Assembly: GCF_000970285.1 (NCBI RefSeq) | Contig: NZ_CP009516.1 | Span: 682,001 to 746,000 of the forward strand | Reading direction: 5' to 3' | Length of the DNA: 64,000 nt | Source of the DNA: Methanosarcina horonobensis HB-1 = JCM 15518 | GTDB lineage: Archaea; Halobacteriota; Methanosarcinia; Methanosarcinales; Methanosarcinaceae | Shown: positions 10,949-13,586 of the stretch, in pieces | How positions within the stretch are numbered: position 1 is the first letter of the stretch | How the letters are laid out: every line of letters starts with the position of its first letter | The notes under the pieces: generated by a model | What the model was told of the DNA's origin: nothing | Database searches by the model: none | Seen by the model: the letters and a program-made list of their open reading frames with translations, nothing else | Program-made: the position numbers and the translations under genes

Positions 10949-12058
10949 TTACGAATGAAGTACAGCTAATATATCATCAGGCCTTGCCCGTTTTGTGATT
11001 CCACCTACAGGATCCTGTATCCCTGCAAGATTATTCGAACTCCCGTTCAGGATCATTAAATTGGCTTTATTTCCCTTTTCGATAGAACTCGCGGAATCTG
11101 GCCCCATTACAAAAGAACCATTAAGTGTGCAAATTTTAAATACTTGTCTATCATCTATCGAAAATACTTTAGACATAAATTCCATTTCGGCAAACATATT
11201 TACAGAATTTAACATTACATTATCCGTCCCGGCTGCTACTCTAATTCCAGTTTCAAGCATTTCAGCTATCGGTGCCATTCCCACTCCTGTTACGAAGTTT
11301 GACCTCGGACAGACAACAACCGGAATTTCTGCCTGAGCCACTTCATTAAGGTCTTTTTCTGTGGCCTGTGTTAAATGGATCAATAGGTCTGGCTCCAGAG
11401 ACAGGGCGTTTTCAATGTCACTTCTGTCCTTTTCCCCAGCGTGGATTGCAAAAAGTTTTTTTCTATCCCGAGTACACGCTGTAATCCCCTGCAGGAGTTC
11501 CATTTCGAGATCGTTTGCTCCGCTTATTCCAAGTCCGTCGGAATGAAGTAAAATCCTTCTTACTTCAGCAAGCACTACTTCCAGAGGAAGCTGGGGTTCA
11601 GTGGGTCTTCCAAATATCAGGGAATGCAGTTCAAGTCCCTCAAGGGCTTTATTAAGGGCTGCAACTCCTACAAGTCCTCCTTCTCTAAAATCCGCAAAAG
11701 CACAGGTTCCTGTCTCTATCATATCCAGTAAAGACCTTCTAATGTGCTCTACAAGTATTTTATAAGAAGTTTCCCTGAGAATTCTATGTTTTAATCCATC
11801 AGGAGGTTTTACAAGGGAGTCAAGGTCTCTCTGAATTCGAAAACCTGAAGTTTTTCCCAGTAAAGGATCTTTACAAACCGAGTCTCCAAGATGAGTATGC
11901 GCATTGACAAAACAAGGAGCTATTATGTTTTTAGAACGTGTGCACTCCTCTCCAACTTCAGTAATAATCCCGTTTCTTACACAGATATATCCCTCTATGG
12001 GTATCAGTTCGGGACCTGCAATAATTGTTCCTGAGATTACCTGTTCAGTGCCGTACAC
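10949..12058 (-). CDS. Amidohydrolase-superfamily protein (chlorohydrolase/deaminase-like)
   Basis: A 369-residue metal-dependent hydrolase. It shows NAHTHLGDS (His-x-His of the TIM-barrel metal site), HAGEKDRS, HLTQATEKDL, and AAGTDNVMLNS with the metal-binding Asp. The outer beta domain is formed by both ends (IISGTIIAG-type start, KGNKANLMILNG near the end). The pattern is closest to the deaminases and chlorohydrolases that act on amino-substituted rings; the substrate is not predictable. It is somewhat shorter than the usual 400-440-residue MTA/SAH deaminases. GTG 12058 has GAGGTG 8 bases upstream. A leftward TATA box is visible near 12122-12136. It heads a likely operon with uspA. Confidence 0.85.
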   Translation of the reverse strand: MYGTEQVISGTIIAGPELIPIEGYICVRNGIITEVGEECTRSKNIIAPCFVNAHTHLGDSVCKDPLLGKTSGFRIQRDLDSLVKPPDGLKHRILRETSYKILVEHIRRSLLDMIETGTCAFADFREGGLVGVAALNKALEGLELHSLIFGRPTEPQLPLEVVLAEVRRILLHSDGLGISGANDLEMELLQGITACTRDRKKLFAIHAGEKDRSDIENALSLEPDLLIHLTQATEKDLNEVAQAEIPVVVCPRSNFVTGVGMAPIAEMLETGIRVAAGTDNVMLNSVNMFAEMEFMSKVFSIDDRQVFKICTLNGSFVMGPDSASSIEKGNKANLMILNGSSNNLAGIQDPVGGITKRARPDDILAVLHS

Positions 12059-12248
12059 TAATACGCACCTCTGCGATTCATCAATCGCCTGTGCTCAGTT
12101 TATGGAACACCAAACATATACATCATATATAACCTTTCCTTAAGCCCTTTTCATATTCTTCGAGCTTTTTTCCCTGTTCCGGCTATGCAGAATTTTTTCA
12201 TGTTTAGCAAAACTCTCAATTATACCTGCATAACAAAATTATTTTTAC

Positions 12249-12259
12249 CGATATATTTA
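12249..12259 (+). promoter_or_regulatory. BRE/TATA promoter of the structured RNA at 12.3 kb
   Basis: CCGATATATTTA is a strong archaeal BRE plus TATA box. Its centre is about 27 bases upstream of GGGCTTCAG at 12281, the natural position for transcription start of the RNA described next. Confidence 0.6.
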
Positions 12260-12280
12260 TTAGTTATTAAATATATATAT

Positions 12281-12460
12281 GGGCTTCAGTCGCATTGTAT
12301 AGGTCCTTGCACGAGATAATGGAAAATCCTGACTGTGAGTGTATAGACAACCCCAATGCGATACATCGATAGTGTGATACTGCCCGGCACGAGGGTAACT
12401 GAAAGGGACTGCGGAAAACCAGAGTGTGATCTTTCGGAGTTAGTGCGCCCGGGCCACAGC
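12281..12460 (+). ncRNA. Structured RNA, probable double-hairpin H/ACA-like guide
   Basis: No convincing protein is encoded here, but two consecutive closed hairpins are. Hairpin 1 closes with an 8-bp stem, 12290-12297 with 12354-12361, followed after one base by ACA (12363-12365). Hairpin 2 closes with GCCCGG 12382-12387 and CCGGGC 12449-12454, again followed after one base by ACA (12456-12458). Hairpin 2 has an inner stem, GAAAG/CTTTC plus AACT/AGTT, whose base is 14 nucleotides from the ACA, the spacing expected of a pseudouridine guide pocket. A UGUGA near each apical loop could be part of a kink-turn. A strong promoter precedes it and a U-rich run (12465-12488) follows. I compared it by eye with SRP RNA and RNase P RNA and saw neither signature. 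The rRNA target was not identified. Confidence 0.55.
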
Positions 12461-12733
12461 ACTATTTTATTAAGGTTTATTTTTGTAAAACTTAATCATA
12501 ATAACTTTCGTGTGCCTAAATAGCTTTTTAGCTTTTATAACGGGTGCTTTTATATTTAATTTCGAAATGCGTGCTTGATTGGCTGACCATGTAATGTTGT
12601 CCCATATTTGGTTATGGCTCCCCAGTTTTCAGTTGTTTTTCATTGACTCGATATCTTTTATTGCTAATTGGCTCTTATTGCTAATCGGTTACTTCGTTAG
12701 TGATTTATATAATATCTTCGAAAAGTGACACAT

Positions 12734-13051
12734 ATGTCCTTTGAAGAGGCAATAAAAGGTCTGGATTCTGGTATTGTTATCGACATCGAAGTCACTCCGG
12801 GTTCCAGGTCGCTTTCTGTTCCCAGCGGCTATAATGAATGGCGCAGGAGAATTGAAGTAAAGCTGACTAAAAACGCCCAGAAAGGAAAGGCAAATGAACA
12901 GCTTATTGAGAGCCTTGCCCAACTCTTCGGGATAAGCAGCTCGGATATCCTGATAAGTAGCGGAGCTACAAGCAGCAAAAAGTCCTTACTGATAAAAGGT
13001 GTCTCCTACCAGCAGGCGGTTTCGGTTTTTGGTGCCCGCTTAAAAAGCTGA
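12734..13051 (+). CDS. DUF167 family protein
   Basis: A 105-residue protein of the DUF167/YggU family, a small alpha-beta fold of unknown function. The conserved core is visible: IDIEVTPGSRSLSV, KAQKGKANEQ-like NAQKGKANEQLIESLA, and SDILISSGATSSKKSLLIKG. ATG 12734 gives the usual MSFEEAIK start; GTG 12725 is an alternative 9 bases upstream. No clear ribosome site is seen, so the mRNA may be leaderless or weakly translated. It runs in the same direction as the Toprim gene 82 bases downstream. Confidence 0.88.
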   Translation: MSFEEAIKGLDSGIVIDIEVTPGSRSLSVPSGYNEWRRRIEVKLTKNAQKGKANEQLIESLAQLFGISSSDILISSGATSSKKSLLIKGVSYQQAVSVFGARLKS

Positions 13052-13133
13052 ATCCTATAATGCATGAACCGGAACTGCAAAACCCGGTTTTCCGACTATA
13101 TTTCCTGTTTAATAAAAAAGGTTGCAGAATAAC

Positions 13134-13586
13134 GTGACTGATGTTGAGGTCTATAGAAAAAGGCTGGAAAGAATTGAGGAATTGCTCCTGGAACTTTCAG
13201 AATACTCTGAAAGGGGAGCAGTGATCATTGTTGAAGGAAAAAGAGATATTCTTTCCATGAAACGGCTCGGTATTAAAGGCAGCTTCGAGCTTGCAACCCG
13301 GCATTCTCTTTTTAATTTCTCTGAAAGGATAGCGAGTCTGGGGTGTGAGGTTATCATACTCACGGATTGGGATAGGAGAGGCGACCTGCTTGCTGCCAAA
13401 CTTTCCGAATACTTTGGAAATTTCGGAATAAAACCCGAGCTTCAAATCCGAAATAAACTGAAGTTAATAACACAAAAAGAAATCAAAGACATAGAAAGTC
13501 TGTACACTTATGTGTCCAAACTCAGGTCAAAAACAGGTTTGTCTTTTAATTATGAGTACGGAACTGGTACAGAACTCGAGAATTAA
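13134..13586 (+). CDS. Toprim-domain protein, UPF0292 type
   Basis: A 150-residue protein with a single Toprim domain. The catalytic glutamate lies in [13 protein letters not shown] and the Asp-x-Asp motif in [11 protein letters not shown], both intact. The small archaeal UPF0292 proteins consist of this domain alone, and their substrate is unknown; Toprim domains act in primases, topoisomerases and RNase M5-type nucleases. GTG 13134 is preferred to the upstream TTG 13122 because AAGGTTG then lies about 10 bases upstream. It is followed by two stem-loops, 13620-13702. Confidence 0.88.

Follow-up and report, generated by a model that had tools for sequence, protein, structure and literature searches.

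The box H/ACA guides that most resemble the RNA described here have been reported from haloarchaea, Pyrococcus and Archaeoglobus fulgidus. The haloarchaeal HP1-HP2 RNA (sR-h45; Hvo1/Hvo2) has two hairpins; H. volcanii HP1 is assigned Psi2621 and HP2 Psi1956/1958, in H. marismortui numbering (PMC2584109), positions that correspond to E. coli 2586 and 1915/1917, respectively. The same paper gives HP1 and HP2 as homologs of stems II and III of Pf7, with a long spacer in halobacteria (PMC2584109). The Pyrococcus RNA itself (Pf7/Pab40) has three hairpins, and Pa40.3 targets L2016 (E. coli 1915). In P. abyssi the equivalent of E. coli 2555 is the target L2672, identified as such through the equivalence of U2669 with 2552, and it has been modelled with Pa35.1 (PMC4652768). 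Afu4 of A. fulgidus (Af4.1-4.3) is a further multi-hairpin guide, the third hairpin of which targets L1970, the counterpart of Pyrococcus L2016 (PMC4652768); it also has three hairpins, Af4.1 being directed to 16S rRNA. The Pyrococcus and Archaeoglobus RNAs are likened to ours by description.

The stretch of DNA analysed here (64,000 nucleotides, hereafter the window) covers bases 682001-746000 of the 5.0-Mb, single-contig genome of Methanosarcina horonobensis HB-1. At a probability of about 0.92, it contains the gene for a box H/ACA guide sRNA that would be transcribed independently, would direct pseudouridylation of 23S rRNA and would be the ortholog of haloarchaeal HP1-HP2 and of hairpins II-III of Pyrococcus Pf7/Pab40 (Table 1). 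The two RNAs are alike in hairpin order and in assigned targets (E. coli 2586; 1915/1917), and a covariance model seeded from the Methanosarcina RNA and broadened phylum-wide matches the haloarchaeal one. They differ in that a spacer separates the hairpins in haloarchaea, where hairpin 1 is also without the ACAACC arm that fits E. coli 2555. The published H. volcanii sequence was likened to the Methanosarcinales RNA by description, and we infer that it is the same RNA as the haloarchaeal one matched by the model. Compared with Pf7/Pab40, the Methanosarcina RNA has two hairpins rather than three. It is an uncatalogued member of the archaeal H/ACA pseudouridylation guides: our literature search found no published Methanosarcina H/ACA guide, and subscription papers may contain one.

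Table 1. Features of the predicted guide RNA locus (positions in the window)
Feature	Position	Strand	Remarks
H/ACA guide RNA gene	12283..12470	+	conserved stretch of the 50-genome alignment; both ends approximate
BRE/TATA-like promoter element CCGATATATTTATTAG	12248..12263	+	CCGRYATWTTTATA-type block conserved upstream in the genus (30 loci), its distance nearly constant
Hairpin 1	12290..12361	+	lower stem 12290-12297 / 12354-12361; upper stem 12306-12312 / 12339-12346
Hairpin 1 5' guide arm TATAGGTC	12298..12305	+	pairs 3' of 23S U2570 (6 bp) or U2601 (4 bp)
Hairpin 1 K-turn/K-loop region	12313..12338	+	GA 12313-12314, UGA 12336-12338
Hairpin 1 3' guide arm ACAACCC	12347..12353	+	pairs 5' of 23S U2570 (6 bp) or U2601 (5 bp)
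ACA box 1	12363..12365	+	one base (T) after lower stem
Additional basal helix enclosing ACA box 2	12368..12375 with 12459..12466	+	modest covariation support, Methanosarcinaceae
Hairpin 2	12382..12454	+	lower stem 12382-12390 / 12443-12454; upper stem 12399-12405 / 12431-12437
Hairpin 2 5' guide arm GAGGGTAA	12391..12398	+	GAGGGU pairs 6 bp 3' of 23S U1942
Hairpin 2 K-turn/K-loop region	12407..12429	+	GA 12407-12408, UGA 12427-12429; invariant in 33 sequences
Hairpin 2 3' guide arm	12438..12444	+	AGTTA (12438-12442) plus GT of lower stem
ACA box 2	12456..12458	+	one base after lower stem; invariant in 33 sequences

The gene is present in a single copy in this genome and lies between an amidohydrolase gene (10949-12058, minus strand) and a DUF167 gene (from approximately 12737, plus strand), which is followed by a Toprim-domain gene. 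This downstream pair (12725-13586, with a DUF167 gene of the YggU type) recurs near the RNA loci, DUF167 at 37/50 and Toprim at 36/50. A CCG-TATA element kept across the genus lies approximately 24 nt above the inferred start, which was placed by its distance from the TATA sequence, and the end was placed at the T-rich tract, giving a predicted RNA of approximately 185 bases; the covariance model matches 12288-12467. The 3' end is T-rich, and a terminator-like hairpin was looked for there and not found.

An earlier, sequence-only reading had described this region as a double-hairpin RNA resembling an H/ACA guide, bracketed by a BRE/TATA element and a T-rich end, with both hairpins closed by stems of 6-8 bp and each followed by one base and ACA. 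The comparative analysis bears this reading out: the promoter element is conserved genus-wide, the lower stem of hairpin 1 has 8 bp and that of hairpin 2 has 9 bp, and two covarying hairpins with pockets, K-turn cores and ACA boxes are found across the phylum, including the haloarchaea. Taken alone, the sequence gives an unremarkable minimum free energy fold (z = -0.79). In 33 aligned sequences from the order, 96% of the cells in the two-hairpin structure are paired and 16/33 pairs show two-sided changes, and none of 500 shuffles scored as high for percentage paired, number of pairs with two-sided changes or covariation score. When partners were slid by 1-3 columns as a control, pairing fell to 26-41%, and RNAalifold recovered nearly the same fold when given no structure. 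Two-sided changes reach 31/33 pairs in the phylum-wide alignment, which was fitted to the model and thereby favours covariation. The comparative evidence points decisively to a real structure, single-sequence folding saying little, and the G-U and U-G pairs place the gene on the plus strand.

Covariation backs the lower stem (8 bp and 9 bp, respectively), the pocket and the upper stem of both hairpins. Archaeal box H/ACA guides have some 7-9 bp in the lower stem and a K-turn or K-loop roughly 10 positions up from the pocket. In hairpin 1, 5/8 pairs of the lower stem show two-sided changes, the pair closing the pocket (C12306-G12346) is 16 nt from ACA, and 9-10 positions separate the pocket from the K-turn. 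Across the 33 sequences, the UGA and the A of GA are invariant in the core of this hairpin and the G of GA is kept in at least 90%; the first and last A of ACA box 1 are likewise invariant, the box being conserved as ANA. In Methanosarcinaceae there is modest support for an extra basal helix of 8-9 bp (88.5% of cells paired and two pairs with two-sided changes in 31 sequences), which encloses the second ACA box and would therefore place it in an internal loop rather than in a free tail.

Hairpin 2 is less regular. Its lower stem pairs GCCCGG-CAC (12382-12390) with GTG...CCGGGC (12443-12445 and 12449-12454), leaving a 3-nt bulge at 12446-12448, and both this stem and the upper stem covary. The covariation-supported pair C12399-G12437 closes the pocket, with 10 positions from the pocket to the second G.A. 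This pair is 18 nt from ACA, above the usual 14-16 nt (PMC4652768, PMC7991803) because of the bulge; in family f5, which is without the bulge, the distance is 15 nt. The sequence-only reading had rightly closed this hairpin with a stem, one base and ACA, and had also placed an inner AAC/GUU stem 14 nt from ACA, with pocket arms at 12388-12396 and 12442-12448. That part has to be given up: the alignment does not support the inner stem, as GUUA is invariant while the 5' strand takes the forms GGUAAC, GGUUAC and GGAAAC, and the closing pair C12399-G12437 puts the arms at 12391-12398 and 12438-12442 instead. GUUAGU of the 3' arm is invariant in the 33 sequences; its UAGU pairs 4 bp 5' of U1942 in 23S rRNA, and GUUA is able to form 4 bp on the 5' side of U1940.

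With the pockets fixed by covariation, all 873 uridines in the 16S and 23S rRNA of this genome were scored as targets. For hairpin 1, 23S U2570 ranks first (6+6 bp) and U2601 second (5+4 bp); for hairpin 2, 23S U1942 (4+6 bp) ranks second, behind 16S U1265 (4+9 bp). The order is unchanged when scores are averaged over 33 homologs. From their sequence context and our own counting, U2570, U2601 and U1942 correspond to E. coli 2555, 2586 and 1917. U1940 corresponds to 1915, and contiguous pairing at that position has a mismatch in Methanosarcina, so that 1917 fits best there. Shuffled arms reach the score of U2570 anywhere in 2% of trials, that of U2601 in 17% and that of U1942 in 33%; the pairing scores of the latter two are not significant on their own against shuffled arms. 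The weight of the target evidence comes from the matches falling on previously described sites, rather than from score alone. The rRNA pairing search proposed by the sequence-only reading lands on uridines described as pseudouridines in other archaea (PMC2584109, PMC4652768). The target uridines face the expected U-N gap, and in the relatives sampled the 23S target bases are nearly invariant.

An H/ACA guide whose hairpin 2 is directed in Methanosarcina mainly to 16S U1265 (L054:2765), a genus-specific target (UGUAAC-U-C-GCCCUCGUG), rather than to helix 69, would explain why this site has the best hairpin 2 score of all uridines, one reached by no shuffled-arm set. We nevertheless consider it unlikely. 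In 25 relatives for which both sequences could be followed, the U1265 pairing decays outside the genus without compensation while the guide arm stays conserved, and in one of them (G035) the target base is a C. In addition, 3/9 of the U1265 pairs use bases of the covarying lower stem (CAC/GUG), and most of the phylum retains the arms that pair with 23S rRNA. The U1265 match is probably either due to chance or specific to the genus.

Taken as a guide for 23S rRNA, the RNA would function as follows. L7Ae would bind the K-turn of each hairpin and Cbf5-Nop10-Gar1 the upper stem and ACA; genes for Cbf5 and Nop10 are present in the genome. The pocket arms would pair with 23S rRNA on either side of the U-N step, and the paired U would sit in the active site of Cbf5 and be converted to pseudouridine. 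Hairpin 1 would guide modification in the peptidyl-transferase/A-loop region, at U2601 and, with this pocket in another register, at U2570, and hairpin 2 would guide modification in helix 69, at U1942 and/or U1940. Hairpin 2 arms suited to 1917 and/or 1915 are kept in most lineages. In helix 69 itself, the position equivalent to E. coli 1918 is A rather than G in L089, L090 and L093 (f3) and in L087, L088 and L091 (f5); a U that matches this A (GGGUUA) occurs in some f5 guides and is missing from others.

Comparison of the hairpin 1 pockets shows that haloarchaea have kept the arm for 2586 and that the arm for 2555 is gone, as would be predicted were Psi2555 missing from this group. We tentatively suggest, at somewhat less than even odds, that a single hairpin 1 pocket used in two registers produces the pseudouridines at E. 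coli 2555 and 2586 in methanogens, and that haloarchaea have lost the 2555 register.

The same complementarity could serve another end. Some archaeal sRNPs have been proposed to act as chaperones or in assembly (PMC3608112), and pre-rRNA could likewise be held by arms that complement the peptidyl-transferase region and helix 69, so that the RNA might bind L7Ae and Cbf5 and yet serve 23S rRNA chiefly in chaperoning or assembly rather than in guiding modification. We regard this as very improbable, as the target bases face the expected U-N gap and coincide with pseudouridines described in other archaea (PMC2584109, PMC4652768).

Relatives of the RNA were found with a DNA query in 50/60 genomes of the order, with DNA identity of approximately 87-95% inside the genus and, for members of other families, 67-75%. 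A covariance model built on Methanosarcinales alone (R1) matches 161/295 genomes of the phylum, already including high-GC genomes that carry the haloarchaeal hairpin 2 motif, and a second model built from broader, phylum-wide hits (R2) matches 269/295 genomes and 99/107 genera. All 59 stretches obtained in a pattern scan come from records named as haloarchaea. When R2 was applied to 14 of these stretches, both hairpins were matched, in a single match in 13/14 and as two partial matches in the other; most of them have an enlarged spacer between the hairpins, in line with the published description of halobacteria (PMC2584109), and the same pocket motifs are present. In the Rfam search, the guide RNA region gave no match above the gathering score, to SRP, RNase P or any other known family, and only chance-level hits (E of approximately 5). 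The predicted guide RNA is conserved across nearly the whole phylum and has no Rfam entry. Least probable of all is that it is a regulatory sRNA or another structured RNA unrelated to H/ACA guides: it is a promoter-driven intergenic RNA, and many trans-encoded sRNAs have been reported in M. mazei (PMC3432209), but the pockets, GA/UGA cores and ACA boxes are nearly invariant, and this, the phylum-wide conservation, the rRNA complementarity and the lack of any matching Rfam family speak against such a reading.

Two departures from the usual arrangement were seen. Three f10 genomes (L156 in G073, L157 in G119 and L187 in G063) carry a version of approximately 100-120 nt consisting of hairpin 1 only, and no hairpin 2 was found beside it. 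Another genome (G060) has two full-length copies of the RNA, on contigs C24 and C9.

The understanding of the H/ACA mechanism is left unchanged by this guide RNA. What changes is that a phylum-wide guide missing from Rfam acquires a well-defined structure and predicted targets in the genetically tractable Methanosarcina, and that lineage differences in the pockets predict which of four 23S uridines would be pseudouridine in each lineage. If the dual use of the hairpin 1 pocket is true, a single RNA would record how ribosome modifications were gained and lost within the phylum.
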